The notes below the pieces were generated by a model that saw only the letters and a program-made list of their open reading frames with translations, made no database searches and had not been told where the DNA came from. Shown piece after piece: positions 613 to 55,730 of a DNA stretch of 64,000 bases (its first letter is position 1; every line of letters begins with the position of its first letter). Position numbers and translations under genes: made by a program. Source of the DNA: a virus; IMG/VR virus record IMGVR_UViG_3300021962_000040, positions 1 through 64,000 of that record; one strand, given 5' to 3'.

Positions 613-1883
613 TACTTCATTGTCATTTTGATGATATCTGGATTCATCATCATCTTGTTAAACTTCTGTTTGTTACCATTAAAGATTGTACGTACTACCA
701 AATACTTTAAGTCATTGGTGAAGTAATCCTTAGTAGAAAGAGAAATCAAACGGTCAGTTACTTTCTGACTAATTGTATTGTCTTTTGCATATACAACTGC
801 ATAGTTAGCCAAACGTGTTGCAAGAGTTGAAGCAATGTCCGCTCTGTAGTTATCACCACTACCAATACAAGACTTAAGTTCACCCAAGATGTATGACTCA
901 TTATCATGTGTCAACAAATCTTTAGGTGTAACCAGCTTGTCCAGTTTGTTATTAATAAATACAGTGAACATGCTTGCAAATGCATCTCCTACAGAACCTT
1001 CACCAATCATTTGGATCATACCTAAGTTATCCTCAAATGAATCAAAGCTAGAAATAGCATTGAAGAAAGTTGTAATAGATCTTGCATTAGTTTCAGTTGT
1101 AACTAATTCAGGATGCATCAACAAGAAGTTAATACAACGTGAGTCAATACCTGCTTCCTCTGCCCAACGTGCCCATACATTAATGTCAAACCTTAAGTTT
1201 GCAGTAATGTAACGTGTCTTTTGTGCAGCATCTACAGAATTAACCATGTAATCACCATTGTCCGGGTTTGATGTCAAGATGATGTGCCAATCTTTTGGAA
1301 GAGACCATGAGATATAAGTCTGACGGTCAATCAATTCCATAACCGCTTGAATAAATCTCACATCAGCACGGTTCCAGTCATCAAGTAATAGAATACCTCC
1401 TTCTTTTTTATCTGCAATCCATTCAGGAGCACAGTAAGACATTCTGTTCTTACCTGTCATCTTATATCCATTCTTTAGATATTCAGATACAGCAAGTTCA
1501 TCCACCCAAATTCCTACTTTCTTAACTACAGTTCCAGCCATGTTAGCTAGATCAGAAGAAGCTGCTGCTCTTTGAGCTGCTGTGTAATTTACTAAATCTG
1601 GAGAGTTTGTTGGCATAGCCTGTTCTTTGTACATCTGAAACTGACGTACAGGAAAACCTACTAAGTCACCAAGCTCCTCAATCTGTGCTAAGTTTAACTT
1701 TACAAAATTTAAATTGTGTTCTTGAGCAAGTTCAACAACTGTTGAAGTCTTACCAATACCTGATTCACCCATAACTTCAATAGCAACCGGTGGTTTGCCT
1801 TGAGCTTGCAAGAATCTGTTGTTGTTAATAATGTGGTTTACGAAACCTTTGAGATCATCAATGTTTAAATTTACTTGTGCCAT
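612..1883 (-). CDS. MoxR-type AAA+ ATPase
   Basis: 423-residue AAA+ ATPase of the MoxR/AAA_5 type. Walker A GESGIGKT lies at residues 39-46, Walker B ILLLDD at 164-169, and a sensor-1 region TSNPDNG at about 204-210. Arginines follow in the AAQKTRY segment. MoxR ATPases act as chaperone-like remodelling factors, normally with a VWA-domain partner that binds the substrate. Here the gene immediately upstream in the operon (1890-3050) encodes exactly such a VWA protein, 6 nt away, so the two probably form one complex. In a phage the target is unknown; assembly of metal-containing or multi-subunit complexes is the usual guess for the family. The domain call is firm, the role is inference. Confidence 0.9.
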   Translation of the reverse strand: MAQVNLNIDDLKGFVNHIINNNRFLQAQGKPPVAIEVMGESGIGKTSTVVELAQEHNLNFVKLNLAQIEELGDLVGFPVRQFQMYKEQAMPTNSPDLVNYTAAQRAAASSDLANMAGTVVKKVGIWVDELAVSEYLKNGYKMTGKNRMSYCAPEWIADKKEGGILLLDDWNRADVRFIQAVMELIDRQTYISWSLPKDWHIILTSNPDNGDYMVNSVDAAQKTRYITANLRFDINVWARWAEEAGIDSRCINFLLMHPELVTTETNARSITTFFNAISSFDSFEDNLGMIQMIGEGSVGDAFASMFTVFINNKLDKLVTPKDLLTHDNESYILGELKSCIGSGDNYRADIASTLATRLANYAVVYAKDNTISQKVTDRLISLSTKDYFTNDLKYLVVRTIFNGNKQKFNKMMMNPDIIKMTMK

Positions 1884-1889
1884 AATTGA

Positions 1890-3050
1890 TTAGTTTAATT
1901 GAATTGTTTTACCAGGTAAATGTTCTGTCTTATGAGATCTGCTACTAAGAACCCATAAAGTATTCTTAGGACAGTTCTCAGGAGAACTACATTCACCATC
2001 TGTTAAATATATAAGAGCTGTATAACGCCCATGGTCATTAAAATGATTAATTACTGGTTGGAAATCAGTGCCTCCGCGGCCTTTGATGTTCCAATCTTTT
2101 TTAGGATTAAAGTCTTCAACAGAATTAATCTGAGTATCACACTGTGCAACTGTAATCTTGTGACCAGTCTTATGCATGTGATGTAACTCATTCATAAATT
2201 CTTTAAGTTCATCACTACTTACAGATCCAGATGTATCTACACCTACAAGTATGTGATTCTTATGTTTAATCTTCAATCCGGGATTCTCACTGTATCTTTT
2301 ATTATACTTTCTTCTGAGCTTCTTTGTAAAGACAATGGATGAATTCCCAACAAATCTTCTGAGATAAGCTTTCCAATCAAACTTTGGAGGTTCAATTGTA
2401 AAAAGTCTTCTAAATATCTCAGCTAACTCACCAGGTAAATGACCTTGTCTTTTCTCTGTTTGCTCAGCTGCCTCCTTAAGCTGATGATCAATCTGTTTTT
2501 CAATAAGCTTTTTTTCAGCTTCTGATAAATCATCAAACTCTTGCCAAGTCTTGTGATCATAAATACTTTCACCGTCCATTTGAGACATAATATTCTCAAG
2601 TGTTTCTGAAGTACCATTATCACGTGCTTGTTGAAGTAATTCATAATAAACTTTTGTACCGGCCTTAGCAGGAAGATTCAACTCTGGAAACTGGTCAAGA
2701 GTTAATCCACCTTCAGGTAAATATTTGCTATCAATATATTGATTGATCTCAAGATCAGCTGCAATATTAAATAGTCTGTGGTCCGGATACATATCCTTTA
2801 CAGTCAAGTGACCAAAAGCAATATGCAGAAGCTCATGCTTCAAAAGACCTGTTGTATGTTCTTCAGATAAGGGATCAACAAAATCTGGATTTATAGAAAG
2901 CTGTACACCAATACCGTGTTTACTAACACCTGCAGTAGGAATATCTTTTCTATATTTTTTGTTGAGACCAATCAAGAACAAACCATAAAAAGGTTCTGTG
3001 AATATCAATAGCTTAGAAGCCTTTGATATTTTGTCAATTACGTTTTGCAT
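1890..3050 (-). CDS. Metallopeptidase-like / VWA-domain protein, MoxR partner
   Basis: 386 residues with two modules. The N-terminal half carries HELLH at residues 72-76 followed by a further His at 81, a zinc-metallopeptidase HExxH signature. The C-terminal half is a von Willebrand A domain with an intact MIDAS: DTSGS at 272-276, a GGTD segment near 325, and the LTDGE aspartate near 350. This two-part architecture matches what I know as the DUF2201 family (peptidase-like plus VWA) that travels with MoxR ATPases. Start at 3050 overlaps the end of the upstream gene by 17 nt. Likely role: substrate-binding and/or proteolytic partner of the adjacent AAA+ ATPase. Whether the peptidase is active cannot be judged from sequence alone. 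Confidence 0.85.
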   Translation of the reverse strand: MQNVIDKISKASKLLIFTEPFYGLFLIGLNKKYRKDIPTAGVSKHGIGVQLSINPDFVDPLSEEHTTGLLKHELLHIAFGHLTVKDMYPDHRLFNIAADLEINQYIDSKYLPEGGLTLDQFPELNLPAKAGTKVYYELLQQARDNGTSETLENIMSQMDGESIYDHKTWQEFDDLSEAEKKLIEKQIDHQLKEAAEQTEKRQGHLPGELAEIFRRLFTIEPPKFDWKAYLRRFVGNSSIVFTKKLRRKYNKRYSENPGLKIKHKNHILVGVDTSGSVSSDELKEFMNELHHMHKTGHKITVAQCDTQINSVEDFNPKKDWNIKGRGGTDFQPVINHFNDHGRYTALIYLTDGECSSPENCPKNTLWVLSSRSHKTEHLPGKTIQLN

Positions 3051-5535: not shown

Positions 5536-6201
5536 TTATAGATCAAAATCATCTCCTGAGTTACCTGAAGTAGGCTCAAACCCAGAAGTTGCTGCTGCTT
5601 CTTTTTTAACAAGCTTTCTTACATGCTCATCATAATTGAAGGTCAACAATCTACCTGCAGTAGAACCAACTGCTTCAAGTGGTAAACCTGTCTTAGATAA
5701 ACGTGGCAAATGTAAATCTACATTTACATAACCATCATTATTTTCCCACTCACGGCCACCAATACAAGCATTAATGTACTCAGTATTTTTGAAGATTTGC
5801 TTACATGCATTTGAAAACTGCTCAAGTGAGTTAGCTTCAATCATATCTACTTCATCTCTCTTACCGGTAACATCTGCTAAGAAAGCAATTGCTTTTACCA
5901 TCTCATCTGCAGCTACAATCTTTCTACCTGTAGGAAGAGTTGTATCTTTATAAGGATAAGGAGACATTCTAACACGTCCAACCTGACCTTGATAACGTGG
6001 TCCATTCTGATTGTCTGCATCTACCAAGAAACCTTGGAATTCTCCACCAACTGGTTCTGTTTCTACATTTAAAATGATATTAAATGCTTGTGGATCATAA
6101 GGGGTAGCATCAAAGCTCAAACTGTTGATTTTTACTTTGTGATTACCTGGTCCAATTACTGGACTTACTCTGTTTGCTGAAACGTTTTTTGTACTAAACA
6201 T
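5536..6201 (-). CDS. Putative single-stranded DNA-binding protein
   Basis: 221 residues. It has a beta-rich body (HKVKINSLSFDATPYD, FNIILNVETEPVGGEFQGF) followed by a low-complexity linker and the acidic-hydrophobic tail SGDDFDL. Such a tail is the hallmark of phage and bacterial SSBs, where it recruits replication partners. It lies between primase and a RecA/Sak4-like ATPase, consistent with that job. No OB fold can be proven by eye. Start chosen at the MFSTKNV methionine, matching the primase N-terminus. Confidence is moderate for function, high for the gene. Confidence 0.65.
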   Translation of the reverse strand: MFSTKNVSANRVSPVIGPGNHKVKINSLSFDATPYDPQAFNIILNVETEPVGGEFQGFLVDADNQNGPRYQGQVGRVRMSPYPYKDTTLPTGRKIVAADEMVKAIAFLADVTGKRDEVDMIEANSLEQFSNACKQIFKNTEYINACIGGREWENNDGYVNVDLHLPRLSKTGLPLEAVGSTAGRLLTFNYDEHVRKLVKKEAAATSGFEPTSGNSGDDFDL

Positions 6202-22244: not shown

Positions 22245-23162
22245 ATGAGAATGCTAAAGAAAGGAGATACTGGTGAAGACGTAAGAAAGCTTCAGCAGAT
22301 TCTTGGTCTTAAGGCAGACGGAAGCTTTGGAGACAAAACACGTGCAGCCGTAATCAGATACCAGATGCATCATGAGCTTACTCCTGATGGCGTTGTTGGT
22401 AATGAGACATGGACGTTGTTATTATCTAAAGGAGGTTTTACAGAAGCCATTGATCAAGATACAGATTTGAGTAGTCAGTATTATACCACTAAGTATAATC
22501 AGACAATCCACAAGTACTTCTTACCTACAGATGAGTATGTGCATGAGAAGCTTGACAATGAGTATATCATGCTGCATCATACAGCCGGAGGAGCTAATCC
22601 TTATGCTTGTGTGGATATGTGGGGTAAAGATACAAGAGGTAGGATTGCTACTGAGTTTGTATTAGGTGGTCAAGATCACGCAACCGGAAAGTCTAAGCAT
22701 GATGGTGTCATGGTACAGGCTTTTCCTCAAGGTAATCTTGGCTGGCACATTGGTGATTCAGGTTCTGGGTACATGAACCGTAGAACCGTGGGCTTAGAGA
22801 TTTGCTCAATGGGTCATCTTAACAAGGATATGAAAACGTATGTGAATAGCAAAGTGGTTGATAGTCAAGTGATTACACTTGATGAAGCATTCAGAGGAGC
22901 TATCCACTGGCATAAATATTCTGACAAGCAGATTGAAGAGGTGGAAAAATGGTTGAGATTCATTGGAGAAAGAGATGGTGTAGATCTAAGAGTAGGTCTG
23001 CAACAGTGGATCAAAAAGCAAGGTGCCACTAAAGCATTTGATTTTCAGGAGGATGCCTATTACGGAAAAGTAAAAGGTTTATTATCTCATACTAATGTCA
23101 GACGTGATAAGATGGATGTTTATCCTGATCCAAGACTGATTGATGTTATCATGAGTTTGTAA
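22245..23162 (+). CDS. Endolysin: peptidoglycan-binding domain plus N-acetylmuramoyl-L-alanine amidase
   Basis: 305 residues. Residues 4-60 form a PG_binding_1 domain (KGDTGEDVRKLQQIL, ADGSFGDKTRAAV, DGVVGNETW). Residues about 105-300 are an Amidase_2 domain: first zinc His in LHHTAG (111/112), GWHIGD, catalytic-region TVGLEICSMG, and a final SHTNVRRDKMDVYPDP with the C-terminal His. Cuts the amide between MurNAc and L-Ala. No signal peptide is visible, so a holin must release it. Binding domain first, catalytic domain last, the reverse of many Gram-positive phage endolysins. Confidence 0.9.
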   Translation: MRMLKKGDTGEDVRKLQQILGLKADGSFGDKTRAAVIRYQMHHELTPDGVVGNETWTLLLSKGGFTEAIDQDTDLSSQYYTTKYNQTIHKYFLPTDEYVHEKLDNEYIMLHHTAGGANPYACVDMWGKDTRGRIATEFVLGGQDHATGKSKHDGVMVQAFPQGNLGWHIGDSGSGYMNRRTVGLEICSMGHLNKDMKTYVNSKVVDSQVITLDEAFRGAIHWHKYSDKQIEEVEKWLRFIGERDGVDLRVGLQQWIKKQGATKAFDFQEDAYYGKVKGLLSHTNVRRDKMDVYPDPRLIDVIMSL

Positions 23163-32854: not shown

Positions 32855-34474
32855 ATGGCAACTCCTGTTTTAAACAATGGAATTTTCCTGAGAGACACTA
32901 GCTACAAAGCCAGTTCTCACGTAGATTCTTACCACTTAACTCAAATGTTAGGTAGTGCTGAACCCATGGATATGGGTCCAGTGGACTTATGGGCTATGAC
33001 TCAAAAAGTTGAAATGCCCCTTTATCAAATGGCTTCTTTTGGTGGTAAAAATACCATCATGGTTGACAATGCACGTGGAGAGTACAAGTGGCAAACGCCA
33101 ATTGCTCAAGACCTTCCTTTTGTAGTTGTGGATCTTGATCCTCAAAATGCAAGCAAAGGTATTGACGGTACTACTTTCACTATCAAATTGTCTAAGAGAT
33201 CATTTGGTCATGGTGATATCATCACTTATGACAAGTACAACGGTTTAGAATTGTACATTACAGCTTCTGATATCATCCCTGCTGGTGATGGTTTCATCTA
33301 CACTGTACAATTGGTGAACAACAACAACGCTGCAAGTCTTGATAACAAGTATCTTGCTCCTGGAACTAAGTTCTTCCGTAAAGGTTCTGCCCGTGGTGAG
33401 TACGGTGAAAGATTCTCTGACATTGAAACTGGTTCTGGTTTCCGTGAGTTCTACAACTACGTAGGTGGTGCTGAAGCTCACGTTCACTATTCTATTTCTA
33501 GCCGTGCTGACTTAATGATCAAAGGTGGTCTTAATGCTGACGGTACTGTACCTGTAACTGAAATCTGGAGAAACTTTAACCAGGATCAAACTAATCCTTC
33601 TGTTTCTTCTATTGAAGAGCTTGTAGCTTCTATGGGTAAAGCTGGTGCACGTGATGCTTTTGAAAGCGGTAAATTGTCACGCACATTTGTTACCAATATG
33701 GAAGCAGCTCACTTAACCAAAATTGCTAATGACATTGAGACTTACTTGATGTGGGGTAAAGGTGGTAGAATTAAGCAAGATGGTCCGGATGATATCAGAT
33801 TGTCTGTAGGTTTGTGGTCTCAATTGGATAACTCATTCAAGAGAGTATACAACAAATCTTCTTTCTCTCTTGATATGTTCAAGTCTGAGCTTTACAACTT
33901 CTACCAAGGTAAAGTTGAGTTCAAAGGTCCAGATCCACAACGTAAGCTTGTTGTACAAACTGGTATCGGTGGTATGCAGTTGATCAACAAAGCTATTGCT
34001 GATGAAGTATACGGATCTGGTTTAGTTCAAAATGCTTCTGAAATTGGTGCTGTTACCGGTAAAGGTATGGATCTTGATTTTGGATTTGCATACACTAGCT
34101 TCACTATTCCTTTCTTGGCTAACGTGAAGTTTGTATTGAACCCTGCATTTGATAACTTGCACACCAATGATATTGAGAATCCTTTGATTGATGGCCGTCC
34201 ATTAAGTTCTTACAGCTTTATTATCTTTGACGTTACTGATAACGGAAATGATAACATCTACTTGTTGAAACTTAACTGGGATAACCAATTGAAGTGGTTC
34301 TACCAAAACGGTACTATGGACTACATGGGACGTACTCAAGGGTTTGCATCTTCTGGTAACTTCAATGGATACCGTGTATACATGAGCCAGACTATGCCTG
34401 CCATCTGGGTAAAAGACCCAACTAAGGTTCTTAAGATTGTTATGAGAAACCCAGTTACTGGCGGATCATTCTAA
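32855..34474 (+). CDS. Major capsid protein
   Basis: 539 residues following scaffold, followed by a strong terminator and with more G/C-ending codons than its neighbours, a sign of high expression. N-terminal helix region (TSYKASSHVDSYHLTQMLG), PMDMGPVDLWAMT, a Gly-rich E-loop-like part and a well-ordered C-terminal half. No HK97 fold can be proven by eye, but order portal-scaffold-MCP and size match crAss-like MCP. Likely main client of the GroES-like protein. Confidence 0.8.
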   Translation: MATPVLNNGIFLRDTSYKASSHVDSYHLTQMLGSAEPMDMGPVDLWAMTQKVEMPLYQMASFGGKNTIMVDNARGEYKWQTPIAQDLPFVVVDLDPQNASKGIDGTTFTIKLSKRSFGHGDIITYDKYNGLELYITASDIIPAGDGFIYTVQLVNNNNAASLDNKYLAPGTKFFRKGSARGEYGERFSDIETGSGFREFYNYVGGAEAHVHYSISSRADLMIKGGLNADGTVPVTEIWRNFNQDQTNPSVSSIEELVASMGKAGARDAFESGKLSRTFVTNMEAAHLTKIANDIETYLMWGKGGRIKQDGPDDIRLSVGLWSQLDNSFKRVYNKSSFSLDMFKSELYNFYQGKVEFKGPDPQRKLVVQTGIGGMQLINKAIADEVYGSGLVQNASEIGAVTGKGMDLDFGFAYTSFTIPFLANVKFVLNPAFDNLHTNDIENPLIDGRPLSSYSFIIFDVTDNGNDNIYLLKLNWDNQLKWFYQNGTMDYMGRTQGFASSGNFNGYRVYMSQTMPAIWVKDPTKVLKIVMRNPVTGGSF

Positions 34475-35928: not shown

Positions 35929-36633
35929 ATGAATAATCAAATCCTTCGGTTAAAGTTAAAGCAAAGATTGAACAAGCTTTCTAGTAATGATTATGATAAT
36001 CTAGAAAACTGGCAAATCATTGAAGCATTCAATAAAGCTCAGGTAGAATGGGTTAGAAGAATGCTGCATGGCAATAATCTTTATAAAGAAGGAGATGAGC
36101 TTTCTAAGAGAAGGATTGATGACTTACAAATACTGTTAACAGAACTACCGTTAGTTGGTACTTCTAATGATCAGTATTTCCAAACAACAAATTTTCCACC
36201 GGCTAATTACTTAGAATACAAAAGAGTTAGTACAAATGCTGTTACAGAATGTTGTCCTGATCCCCGTTCAATGACAGTTTATTTAGGTGAGGTTGCTAAT
36301 GTAGACTTATACCTTAGAGATCCACTTAAGAGACCTGATTTTGAATGGGGTGAAACATTCCTTACAATGATTAATAATACAATCAGAATTTATTTAAGGG
36401 AATTTACTCTTGCTAATCCAGTGCTTACTTATTACAGACAACCCAGAGGAATTGAATTTACGGGTGTTTTAAATCCATATACTGGAATTATTTCTACAGC
36501 AGATGTTACCTCAGAATTTAAAGATGACATTGTAGAATTAATGCTAGATGATGCTGCCGCACTAATTGCTGGAGATATTGAAAACTTTAATCAAATGCAG
36601 AGAGAACAACAAGCTGCAGAAAGAAATAACTAA
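35929..36633 (+). CDS. Head-tail connector / adaptor protein
   Basis: 234 residues. Helical N-terminus (RLKLKQRLNKLSSNDYDNLENWQIIEAFN) and conserved-type regions (YLEYKRVSTNAVTECC; RIYLREFTLANPVLTYYRQPRG). By place after the capsid genes and by its small alpha-beta character it fits the adaptor (ring 1) proteins of crAss-like phages that sit between portal and tail. Inference from order and size. Confidence 0.65.
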   Translation: MNNQILRLKLKQRLNKLSSNDYDNLENWQIIEAFNKAQVEWVRRMLHGNNLYKEGDELSKRRIDDLQILLTELPLVGTSNDQYFQTTNFPPANYLEYKRVSTNAVTECCPDPRSMTVYLGEVANVDLYLRDPLKRPDFEWGETFLTMINNTIRIYLREFTLANPVLTYYRQPRGIEFTGVLNPYTGIISTADVTSEFKDDIVELMLDDAAALIAGDIENFNQMQREQQAAERNN

Positions 36634-36635
36634 TT

Positions 36636-37127
36636 ATGGACTACACTAAAAGACCTTTAAAAAGAAAATCAGAGTCTGCTTCAGAAGAAGCAATGGAAAA
36701 ACCAATGTTGAAAAGAACAGCATCTGGCAGATCTCCTGAAATGCAGAAAGTAGATACTATGACTGGTAACTTAGTAGAGGAACTTATGAATGCTTCAACT
36801 AGTTTTCATAAGCTTCATTTGAAGGTTACTGGACCTGGATCTTTTGCTGCTCATAAAGCATTGAATGAATTATATGATGCTTTACCGGGATTAGCAGATT
36901 CTATAGCTGAAGGATATCAAGGTGCATGTGAAATGATTTTAAAATGCAGCGGAGAAGGACCAATGTATTTAGAATCTGTTGAAGATGCTGTTGAATACTT
37001 ACGTCAAATGAAAACACAAGTTGATGAATTGCAAGCTGTAATGCATCATACTGAGATTGTAAATTTGTTAGATACAGTCAAAGATGCAATTAACAGTGCA
37101 AAATACAAATTAATTTTCTTGGCATAA
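36636..37127 (+). CDS. Dps/ferritin-like protein with intact ferroxidase ligands
   Basis: 163 residues. A basic N-terminal tail (YTKRPLKRKSES, KPMLKRTASGR) is followed by a four-helix-type body. The sequence LHLKVTGPGSFAAH places His61 and His73 twelve residues apart, then Asp88 and Glu92 (LADSIAEG) follow at +15 and +4. This is exactly the spacing of the Dps ferroxidase ligands (H51, H63, D78, E82 in E. coli Dps) including the LHxxxxGxxF signature. I infer a Dps-like mini-ferritin, perhaps oxidising iron or protecting and binding DNA. Two bases after the connector gene. Confidence 0.75.
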   Translation: MDYTKRPLKRKSESASEEAMEKPMLKRTASGRSPEMQKVDTMTGNLVEELMNASTSFHKLHLKVTGPGSFAAHKALNELYDALPGLADSIAEGYQGACEMILKCSGEGPMYLESVEDAVEYLRQMKTQVDELQAVMHHTEIVNLLDTVKDAINSAKYKLIFLA

Positions 37128-37140
37128 GTTGTAAATTGTA

Positions 37141-37159
37141 AAACTTTTTGTATATTATA
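37141..37159 (+). promoter_or_regulatory. Late-promoter candidate, copy A
   Basis: AAACTTTTTGTATATTATA, identical over 19 nt to 49211-49229. It lies 51 nt before the 412-aa gene and just before a palindrome (37160-37178). Members of the GTATATTA box family upstream of right-arm genes. Confidence 0.6.
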
Positions 37160-37178
37160 TATGTGCACGGTGCACATA
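37160..37178. promoter_or_regulatory. Palindrome TATGTGCAC-G-GTGCACATA
   Basis: A perfect 9-bp inverted repeat around one G, directly downstream of the promoter box at 37141-37159, so it falls on or next to the likely transcription start. Could be an operator or a 5'-leader hairpin. Confidence 0.6.
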
Positions 37179-37210
37179 ATATTTATTTGTAAACTTAAAA
37201 CTGAAAAAAA

Positions 37211-38449
37211 ATGGCTTATTTTAATCATGCGTTTGGCAAAGCATTTGTTGTAGATGGTTTTGCTGCTGCAGGAGTCAAGACTTCTGCTTTCACACCTGGT
37301 TTGTTTGAAGTTGTAAACAGCTCATGGGCTTCTGTAGAAGCTTCTGCAGGTAACAACATCACAGCAGGTCAATTATTTTACCTTGTACAAGGTAGCTTTC
37401 AAACTGAAGACAACATTGGTAACAACCCAGGTCACGGGGGTTACAAAGAGTCTGTAAAATCTAAAGGCATTAATGCTAGATTTATCAGCAGATTATGGTC
37501 TTCTGAGTGTCAATCTTCTACAGCTGCAACTGTAAAAATTTGTGTAGGTTCTACTTGTGCTCCTTGTGGATCTAACCTTTTCTTACGTTTAGATGTTAAA
37601 GGTTCTCCTGCTTTACGTTTCTTGAACCACAATGCTTATGCAATTGGTGATAGTTCAGGAAGTGCTTATCAAAACAATGTACCTGGTAACTGCTGTGCAT
37701 TGGATCAAACTTACCTTGACCCTGCTGTTGCTTTAGCTAAAGCTGCTGCTATGTTGTTGGAAGATCCAATCATCAAGCCTTTTGCTAAGGAAAAAACTGG
37801 CGGTGGAATGCAAGTAACTGTAGGTGCTACTACAACTACTTACACTATTGCTCAAGTATTAGGTTTAGCTCCTTCTGGAAACTATACTCCTTCTGTTGAT
37901 CCTGTTGCTGATCAAGTATCTGCTTGTGTATCTTTCCAAGGTGCTTATGTAGACACTAAATTTGGTAGCTGCTCATTTGATACACGTGATCATTATGAGA
38001 AAGAGCCAGTACAATTGATCGGTTCAGTATTGAATGAGACTGGTGATCCTTGTAATGACTGTGGTGTTGTAACTACTACTCCTGGTACCATGCAACAAAC
38101 TTCTGGTGAAACTGTATTGAGAGATGTATTGTTAACTGAGGCTTACAGACAATCTCCTTACAACCAAGGAAATCCTGATTCTGCACGTATCCGTCAAATT
38201 GAAGGATCTGACAAAATCTTGTCTGCTATTGACCGTGAGGCTTTGTACAAAACGTACTACATCCAACATAGCATTCCAAGATTGAACAATCCTTCTGGAA
38301 CGTTTGATAATGATCAATATGTTTATACCATCTATGTTAAGTGTACTGCTACTGCATTGATCACTAAAATGGATACGTTGATGGCTAAAATTGTTCAAGT
38401 GGCTGGTGCTTCTGGTAATCCAATCACTTTTGAATCAAATATTGACTAA
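37211..38449 (+). CDS. Cysteine-containing virion protein, 412 aa
   Basis: 412 residues with own promoter and own terminator, G/C-rich codons like MCP, implying an abundant structural protein. Ala/Ser/Thr-rich; about a dozen cysteines, including VGSTCAPCGS, GNCCALD and DPCNDCG. Contains a YTIAQVLGLAPSGNYTPSVDPVAD segment. It may be a head fibre, decoration or major tail-type component. No family recognised. Confidence 0.75.
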   Translation: MAYFNHAFGKAFVVDGFAAAGVKTSAFTPGLFEVVNSSWASVEASAGNNITAGQLFYLVQGSFQTEDNIGNNPGHGGYKESVKSKGINARFISRLWSSECQSSTAATVKICVGSTCAPCGSNLFLRLDVKGSPALRFLNHNAYAIGDSSGSAYQNNVPGNCCALDQTYLDPAVALAKAAAMLLEDPIIKPFAKEKTGGGMQVTVGATTTTYTIAQVLGLAPSGNYTPSVDPVADQVSACVSFQGAYVDTKFGSCSFDTRDHYEKEPVQLIGSVLNETGDPCNDCGVVTTTPGTMQQTSGETVLRDVLLTEAYRQSPYNQGNPDSARIRQIEGSDKILSAIDREALYKTYYIQHSIPRLNNPSGTFDNDQYVYTIYVKCTATALITKMDTLMAKIVQVAGASGNPITFESNID

Positions 38450-38563: not shown

Positions 38564-39118
38564 ATGGCCAGTAAGCATATTTTAAGTCTAGAAGTTCCAA
38601 CTGTATCAAATTGTGAGATTTTATCCATACGGGATACCAGTGAATATTCTGAATTAATTCCTATTGATTGTCCGGAATTGCTCATTACTGTTCCAGGATT
38701 CAATTCATCTGTTATTGTTAAAACAACTCCAGAATTTTTTGTAAATTTAAATGGATGTGATTTGGCATTACAGAAAACAGATTGTAATGAGAGTAGAATT
38801 GGTCTTCCTGATGGTGTATATGTCATCAAGTATAGCGTTGCACCAAATGATAAAGTTTATGTAGAGTACAATCATTTAAGAATTACTAATATCTTAAATG
38901 CTTATTATAAAGTATTGTGTTGCATTGACTTAGAAAATTGTGAACCTTTTAGTGAAAAAAAGGAACTTATTGAAGAAATGCAATACATTAGAACTTTAAT
39001 TGATGGAGCAGTTGCTAAAGTAGAATACTGTAGTAGCCCATCATTAGGTATGGATATGTATAACTATGCATTGAAAAGACTTGACAAAATTCTGTGCAAA
39101 AGTTGCGGATGTAATTAA
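38564..39118 (+). CDS. Hypothetical structural-module protein, 184 aa
   Basis: 184 residues. Beta-rich start (HILSLEVPTVSNCEILSIRD; LLITVPGFNSSVIVKT), helical middle (EKKELIEEMQYIRTLIDG) and a Cys-rich end (DKILCKSCGCN). First of a gene run encoding cysteine-containing tail-region proteins. Function unknown; probably virion or assembly. Confidence 0.7.
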   Translation: MASKHILSLEVPTVSNCEILSIRDTSEYSELIPIDCPELLITVPGFNSSVIVKTTPEFFVNLNGCDLALQKTDCNESRIGLPDGVYVIKYSVAPNDKVYVEYNHLRITNILNAYYKVLCCIDLENCEPFSEKKELIEEMQYIRTLIDGAVAKVEYCSSPSLGMDMYNYALKRLDKILCKSCGCN

Positions 39119-54177: not shown

Positions 54178-54843
54178 ATGGCAACAATTGCAGACGTAGT
54201 ATCAAGAATAAGGGGTCAAATAAAGGCAGAAAGTCAAGATGCTTTTACTACTGACCGATACATATATAGCCTTATCCAGAAGTTTTCTCAAGTATTAATG
54301 AGAAGACAAGACTTTGCTAATAAGTTAATGAAGTTTAACTCAATATGGAAAACTCTTCCTTATGTAGAACTTATTGAAGTAGATAAAGTAGAAGCTCATT
54401 GTTCAGGCATTCAAAGTGGCTGTACAATTATGAGAACAAAGAATCCATTGCCTGATATGATTGAAGGTTACTGGGGCCCATTGATTAGAAGTATTACTTC
54501 AATTGACGGTTCTCAAGAATTACAACCTACTCAACCAGCTACCTATCTGTCAATGACAAAGACAACATCTTTTAGATATAATACAACCAAGTACTTTTGG
54601 TTTATTGATCATCACATTTACTTTCCAGATTTGGAATGGGATGCTGTTAAGATAGAAGCTGTTTTTGATTCAGACATTTCAGCTTGGCAATGTGATGATA
54701 AGTGCGTTCCAATATATGAGCAAGACATCAATATTCCAGAATCTTTATTTGCTGAGGTTGAATCTCAAGTTTTAACTGTGATGAGTAATACTTTGAGAAT
54801 TCCTTCAGAAGATTCTGATAACAAAATAAATCCCCATAGATAA
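54178..54843 (+). CDS. Tail tubular / ring protein A
   Basis: 221 residues. N-terminal helices (ADVVSRIRGQIKAESQDAFTTDRYIYSLIQK in outline), central Cys/beta region (HCSGIQSGCTIMRTKN) and an FPDLEWDAVKIEAVF part. Comparable to the P22 gp4/crAss tail tubular proteins that stack under the portal. Stop and start of the next gene overlap by one base, a paired arrangement with the 295-aa protein. Assignment is by order. Confidence 0.62.
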   Translation: MATIADVVSRIRGQIKAESQDAFTTDRYIYSLIQKFSQVLMRRQDFANKLMKFNSIWKTLPYVELIEVDKVEAHCSGIQSGCTIMRTKNPLPDMIEGYWGPLIRSITSIDGSQELQPTQPATYLSMTKTTSFRYNTTKYFWFIDHHIYFPDLEWDAVKIEAVFDSDISAWQCDDKCVPIYEQDINIPESLFAEVESQVLTVMSNTLRIPSEDSDNKINPHR

Positions 54844-55730
54844 TGGCAATCTCTCATAAATATAGAACCTTTGATCAACTGTACAATGATGTTACAGTTG
54901 ATTTTGCTGCATATGCTCTAGAGGGTTTTATAGACCCTCAGCAATTGATTAAAGTAGCTACTAGAGTTAATTATGATTTGGGTCTAAGAATTCATAGAAC
55001 TAAAGAAGTAGTGTTAGATGTTGAGCATGGTAAGGCTAGATTGCCTTATGACTTTGCCTATTTAAACTATGCATTTAGATGTGGCAGCTATACAGTTGCT
55101 GACAGACAACCAAGTGGTACTCACATTGAAACATTTAATGATGTTCCTTATGTACCAGCTCCAGGAGAATCTGGTCCATGTAAAGACCCTACCTGCAAAG
55201 ATGTATGTGTTATAAAGACTTGTGATAATAAGAATGAATATCAGATTGTTCAAAAAGTAGGTGGTGCAAATCAGTATAGAGTATTTACTGCTTTTGTTCC
55301 ATTGAGAATGAACACTGTTAATAAGTTTACTTGTGACTGTCCTAATATTAATGAGCAGGCGGCAGATGTTGCTGAAATCAAGGATGGTTTTATTCTAACC
55401 TCTTTTACTACAGGTAAGGTTTATTTAAACTATCAAGGGGCAATGGAAGATACTGATGGAAATTTGCTTGTCTTAGATCATCCTTATTGTAATGAATACT
55501 ATGAATACGCATTAAAGCAAAGAGTCATAGAAAATATGATTTTTGCTGGTGAAAATCTAGGCAGTCAGTTGACATTGATTGAGCAGAGATTAAGAGCTGC
55601 TAGAAACAATGCATTGAGTTTTGTTAATACCCCAGACTTTAGAGAACTATATGAAGTATGGTGGAATAACAGAAGAGCTCAATATCATAATTATTATAAC
55701 ATGTTTAAAAGTCATCCAGTGATTGGATAA
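54843..55730 (+). CDS. Tail tubular / ring protein B
   Basis: 295 residues. Helical N-terminus (FDQLYNDVTVDFAAYALEGFIDPQQL), beta core (KEVVLDVEHGKARLPYDFAYLNYAFRCGSYT), a Cys-rich patch (CKDPTCKDVCVIKTC) and a helical end with RVIENMIFAGENLGSQLTLIEQRL. Likely ring protein beneath the connector, next to the muzzle-like gene. By order, tail hub assembly. Confidence 0.62.
   Translation: MAISHKYRTFDQLYNDVTVDFAAYALEGFIDPQQLIKVATRVNYDLGLRIHRTKEVVLDVEHGKARLPYDFAYLNYAFRCGSYTVADRQPSGTHIETFNDVPYVPAPGESGPCKDPTCKDVCVIKTCDNKNEYQIVQKVGGANQYRVFTAFVPLRMNTVNKFTCDCPNINEQAADVAEIKDGFILTSFTTGKVYLNYQGAMEDTDGNLLVLDHPYCNEYYEYALKQRVIENMIFAGENLGSQLTLIEQRLRAARNNALSFVNTPDFRELYEVWWNNRRAQYHNYYNMFKSHPVIG

Follow-up and report, generated by a model that had tools for sequence, protein, structure and literature searches.

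A predicted Dps-like mini-ferritin of the DUF5856 family as an accessory gene in the virion module of a crassvirus

What would a phage do with a mini-ferritin-like gene set among the genes of its virion? The question is raised by one locus in a 64,000-nucleotide stretch of viral DNA (positions 1 to 64,000 of IMG/VR record IMGVR_UViG_3300021962_000040), the whole of which we call the window. An open reading frame on the + strand (36636..37127, stop codon included) encodes a protein of 163 amino acids that we annotate, on reading-frame, family, fold and profile evidence, as a Dps-like mini-ferritin of DUF5856/PHROG 858. The frame is intact and begins with an ATG 2 nt past the stop codon of the preceding gene. 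An alternative start at M20 was considered, since KPMLKR there looks like the N-terminus that relatives usually have; it is not preferred, because the 78% identical protein of contig L002 has no methionine there and aligns from M1.

Membership in DUF5856, a family to which the first-pass annotation had pointed from the letters of the DNA, is borne out by Pfam (PF19174; 60.1 bits against a curated cut-off of 34.6, E 4.6e-16) and by PHROGs (family 858, E 7e-19). The PHROG family carries the label “starvation-inducible transcriptional regulator” and also “DNA binding protein,” the former most likely derived from Dps annotation. An NCBIfam search with the protein gave nothing meaningful, and PF00210, the Pfam Ferritin model that includes Dps, found no match in the window's record, while it matched in 14 of 14 control genomes. 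DUF5856/PHROG 858 occurs in more than a thousand phage records, where it is called “unknown function” or “transcriptional regulator,” and it includes rI.-1 of phage T4. Our literature search did not find DUF5856 by name.

AlphaFold2 confidently models the monomer as a bundle of four helices with a short BC helix, together with a tail that is disordered (predicted helices 34–63, 69–93, 95–103, 115–135 and 139–162). Dps ranked top in a single-sequence search of the PDB, with an E-value of only 0.02 that is not significant, whereas a profile built from 28 relatives reached HP-NAP at E 2e-4, in an alignment that runs gap-free through both ligand helices with the ligands in register. The PDB rows listed by Foldseek were Dps proteins, each with an E-value of only about 3e-3 to 2e-2. 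Because helical bundles reach high structural scores easily, no single score is decisive, including that of the VIA-align match to MsDps2 (Z 15.8, 2.3 Å, 126 residues); what makes the case is that fold, profile and ligand register agree. The Dps/ferritin-like structure proposed in the first-pass annotation thus holds at the level of prediction, and the outcome named there as speaking against it, a fold without a bundle, was not seen. Sequence and model together support a predicted Dps-like four-helix bundle with ferroxidase-type ligands.

The ligands themselves had been read correctly. Residues 61, 73, 88 and 92 are H, H, D and E, and their spacing of 12, 15 and 4 is exactly that of H51, H63, D78 and E82 of E. 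coli Dps. Their codons lie on the + strand at 36807..36818 (H58 and H61, at the end of helix A, H61 being the first ferroxidase-type ligand), 36852..36854 (H73, the second) and 36897..36911 (D88 to E92, the third and fourth). H58, H61, H73, D88 and E92 are invariant in 72 of 72 aligned near relatives and again in 13 diverse members with 21–55% identity to the Dps-like protein, which include T4 rI.-1 and members from Klebsiella phage KP27, Pantoea phage Phynn, Serratia phage IME250, Salmonella phage Sajous1 and small podoviruses. Only 11 columns are invariant among these 13, with the four main ligands and H58 among them; residues common to all include H58, H61, H73, A75, D88, E92, G96, D146, L159 and L162. 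Given this invariance and the gap-free alignment of the family profile to solved Dps chains, the ligand pattern is not due to chance. The motif H-x11-H-x14-D-x3-E also occurs only once in the window (six-frame ORFs of at least 60 codons), against about 1.4e-4 matches expected from composition in the Dps-like protein and 0.02 in the window ORFs, a count that we retain only as a check since it is redundant once homology is established. The spacings H73–D88 and D88–E92 are fixed across the DUF5856 members compared. Between H61 and H73, the crassvirus lineage and podovirus ctEw122 have a spacing of 12, but the members from T4, Ackermannviridae and most podoviruses have one of 9; therefore, the exact Dps spacing is a property of this protein and not a constant of the family.

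E. coli Dps has a further metal ligand, D67. Its place is taken here by N77 (codon 36864..36866, + strand), in a position that is not conserved as an acid: the 72 relatives have N (57), G (14) or K (1), so the acidic ligand of Dps is not found there, while the Dps chains in the profile alignment have E. In addition, our protein has Leu where Dps has a Trp next after its first ligand His. Since the D67 position is N, G or K, the Trp is replaced by Leu and PF00210 is unmatched, we file the protein under DUF5856 and not under classical Dps; it is a DUF5856 protein with a predicted ferritin-like fold that probably works in a Dps-like manner. A conserved site does not by itself make iron the metal.

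The gene is embedded in the structural region of a Crassvirales phage, as indicated by a crassvirus major capsid protein (32855..34474, + strand; Pfam Crass_capsid, 1e-32), portal, terminase and a second ring protein (CrAss_Ring_1, 54843–55730). Directly upstream lies a gene for a crassvirus tail ring (connector) protein of 234 aa (35929..36633, + strand), for which the best annotated match by tblastn is the “ring protein” of csAssE-Sib (9e-7), followed by virion and structural proteins of Cellulophaga phages. Downstream, a 412-aa protein (37211..38449, + strand) is predicted to be a homologue of the auxiliary capsid protein gp36 of phicrAss001. VIA-align, run with a model of only moderate confidence, ranked phicrAss001 capsid chains first, with 7qof chain a (333 residues) at Z 13.8 over 303, far above unrelated rows, while Foldseek with the same protein gave nothing significant. 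We identified 7qof chain a as gp36 because the chain length and the published capsid composition fit (PMC10172136); gp36 is located in the phicrAss001 capsid (PMC10172136). The block continues with a conserved 184-aa protein (38564..39118, + strand) recognized by synteny and without a PDB match. PDB profile searches with the ring, 412-aa and 184-aa families gave nothing significant. The placement between a connector and a virion protein, on which the first-pass annotation had remarked, is thus supported, with the downstream neighbour assigned by predicted fold. Nearly all loci fetched by similarity to the Dps-like protein show the order ring, Dps-like, 412-aa type, 184-aa type. The one near relative found outside this setting (L057, 5902–6375) has neighbours unrelated to those in the window.

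The spacing of these genes bears on when the protein is made. Ring gene and Dps-like gene lie −1 to 13 nt apart in all but one of 86 deduplicated loci, and TATATTA stands between them in none of 86. By contrast, the intergenic stretch after the Dps-like gene (37128..37210) contains TATATTA at 37151–37157 and the palindrome GTGCAC-G-GTGCAC at 37163–37175. Of 112 loci, 100 have TATATTA ahead of the auxiliary capsid gene, compared with 4.8% of random stretches, and both elements occur in L002 and L096 as well. Judged by sequence, they are probably a phage promoter and operator of the auxiliary capsid gene. Given the short ring-to-gene gap and the presence of TATATTA only after the Dps-like gene, this gene most likely closes the ring unit as its final cistron and belongs to the late virion module.

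So close a tie to the ring gene could mean that the protein is a required piece of the head–tail junction, a ferritin-fold cage taken over for assembly. The linkage is tight in the set fetched with the Dps-like protein, and ring and Dps-like proteins diverge in parallel (Mantel r 0.54). However, in a set of 80 ring-bearing contigs fetched with the ring protein, and thus not chosen for presence of the gene, it follows the ring gene directly in 43, lies beyond an inserted gene in 1 (L108) and is absent from 36; phages with the ring and auxiliary capsid genes in common therefore do not all carry it. A search of 17 gene-less records over their full length, which exceeds 107 kb in four, found no copy at another place, and csAssE-Sib and Cellulophaga phi17:2 have no Dps-like gene at the ring site. 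Two contigs, L096 and L097 (about 5706–5760), retain a deletion scar: immediately after the stop codon of the ring gene come the codons of the last 17 residues of the Dps-like gene, TVKDAINSAKYKLIFLA, and then a stop, and nothing else of the gene is left. Their ring protein shares 90% identity with that of L002, which has the gene. At least nine presence changes are needed on the ring tree, and at least five gains or losses are forced by its well-supported branches. Because it is repeatedly absent in relatives, the Dps-like gene is an accessory gene in crassviruses and not a building block. The absences, the scar and the forced changes argue strongly against an indispensable assembly role, and the earlier suggestion of a cage repurposed for assembly, taken as a required part, is not upheld; we regard it as highly improbable. 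The slot between ring and auxiliary capsid genes looks like a site for optional genes: L109 (5709–5919) and L137 (5699–5885) have a membrane-type protein of about 60 aa in it instead, and in L108 (5705–7078) a glycosyltransferase-like gene is inserted ahead of the Dps-like gene.

An accessory protein may still travel in the particle. The mini-ferritin could be packaged in or on the virion through an N-terminal peptide and act there or on entry, as a guard of the packaged DNA, as an iron carrier or as a protein passed on to the host, and not only in the infected cell. Several observations are consistent with this: the position between ring and auxiliary capsid genes, a conserved N-terminal motif on a variable linker, three podoviruses in which the family gene comes right behind that for the portal or connector, and Dps-like domain models in viral database proteins named prohead protease. 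Moreover, gp217 of Sajous1, which we confirmed as a member of DUF5856/PHROG 858, was found with 10 spectra by MS in CsCl-purified virions and was modelled as a ferritin (PMC10892097). Against this, the authors of the MS data caution that low counts may be contaminants, and although an iron-based entry route was proposed for Sajous1, host TonB or FeoB mutants left infection unchanged (PMC10892097). The gene is also repeatedly lost, and T4 rI.-1 (L175, 520–906; NC_000866, 58819–59205), a member of the same family with all four ligands, adjoins the lysis-inhibition gene rI, as does the KP27 member, both outside a virion module. On balance, we consider packaging possible but rather unlikely. A broader proposal would make DUF5856 proteins the phage counterpart of the ferritin cargo of encapsulins: virion-borne, iron-loading cages that an N-terminal peptide tethers inside or on the particles of crassviruses, ViI-like myoviruses and some podoviruses. 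It seems to us unlikely; if it were true, T4 rI.-1 would be a genetically tractable relative. The location of the T4 and KP27 genes beside rI would suggest another idea, namely that the protein kept the fold but is metal-poor and mainly binds DNA or other proteins, or regulates lysis or transcription. The loss of the D67 ligand, the basic N-terminal tail and both PHROG labels (“starvation-inducible transcriptional regulator” and “DNA binding protein”) point the same way. Nevertheless, only a metal site would readily account for the presence of four ligands and H58 among so few invariant columns. Moreover, the protein showed no known DNA-binding domain, and the PHROG label most likely came from Dps annotation. 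We judge this idea improbable.

The N-terminal tail figures in several of these readings. Residues 1–33 (36636..36734, + strand) form a disordered tail of low pLDDT with a conserved L-K-R motif (L25–R27). It is basic, as first noted, but modestly so: the net charge over residues 1–36 is +3, within a family range of +1 to +5. An L-K-R type motif with a variable linker is present in 60 of 61 distinct N-termini. Since the motif is conserved while the linker varies, a tether to DNA or to a partner is suggested, and the peptide probably anchors the putative cage either on DNA or on a component of the virion. We also considered whether the motif is a targeting signal common to proteins of the window; only the amidase at 22245 starts similarly, which lends no support. 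As a separate observation, the tail of the present protein (36636–36719) has two like strings, KRPLKR (residues 5–10) and KPMLKR (22–27), while relatives have one only, near the start.

Taking these points together, we propose that the gene is an accessory, late-expressed one for a predicted iron-sequestering Dps-like mini-ferritin, possibly virion-associated, and we think this the likelier account by a reasonable measure of confidence. H61 and H73 of one subunit and D88 and E92 of its partner would form a metal site at the two-fold interface. The subunits could then assemble into a small cage that binds and oxidizes Fe2+, probably with H2O2, and stores the iron. Being made late together with virion proteins, such cages would keep free iron from generating hydroxyl radicals that harm phage DNA and proteins in the virocell, and the N-terminal L-K-R peptide on its linker would probably tether them to DNA or a virion component. 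In this putative role, the protein probably limits iron-driven oxidative damage during infection. Host dps and catalase are strongly induced in lytic infection (PMC7354516), Dps genes in phages have been discussed as oxidative-stress genes (PMC8008677), and freshwater phages carry ferritin along with other oxidative-stress genes (PMC6802176).

The proposal can be set beside known systems. With bacterial mini-ferritins (E. coli Dps, HP-NAP, MrgA, MsDps2), the protein shares the four-helix bundle with BC helix and the H/H/D/E register, but it has N or G at the D67 position in its lineage, HL for HW, and no PF00210 match. Other DUF5856 members, including T4 rI.-1 and Sajous1 gp217, have the same H58, H61, H73, D88, E92, G96 and D146, whereas our protein has a longer N-terminal tail with L-K-R and an H–H spacing of 12 instead of 9; its gene lies between crassvirus ring and auxiliary capsid genes and not by rI or a primase. 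The Dps genes of Gratiaviridae and other gut phages and of Lactobacillus phages are likewise phage-borne and are read as oxidative-stress genes (PMC8008677, PMC6669764). Those are recognized as Dps proper, and the Lactobacillus ones lie by DNA-metabolism genes, unlike the present DUF5856 gene in a virion module. By analogy only, the arrangement recalls the ferritin-like cargo of encapsulins, with a small ferritin-like protein, an HK97-fold shell and a short terminal peptide on a linker. The targeting peptides of encapsulin cargo are mostly C-terminal (PMC11202242); the peptide here is N-terminal, and its use in phage loading is a supposition.

For some crAss-like phages (cr106_1, cr108_1, ctDAq1), databases already name a protein as Dps-like, Yutin 2021 makes no mention of Dps, and a ferritin-like reading of one DUF5856 member has been published (PMC10892097). 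Our analysis adds a metal site common to DUF5856 members, the location of the gene between ring and auxiliary capsid genes, the finding that it is optional and has left a deletion scar, and a connection of the Dps-like protein with T4 rI.-1 and the Sajous1 virion data. DUF5856 thereby gains a concrete biochemical hypothesis that is testable in a model phage, and if family members do travel in virions, phages would carry iron-handling cages along with them.

Two further observations were made along the way. In BFVD, a region of A0A6J7XDU5 (333 aa) and of A0A6J7WIS1 (432 aa), both named “Prohead protease,” matches the Dps-like model; judging from these models, both entries may have a Dps-like domain fused to a protease of head maturation. 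Elsewhere in the window, on the − strand at 615–3050, an AAA ATPase adjoins a DUF2201 metallopeptidase/VWA-like protein, an arrangement that resembles MoxR–VWA pairs.
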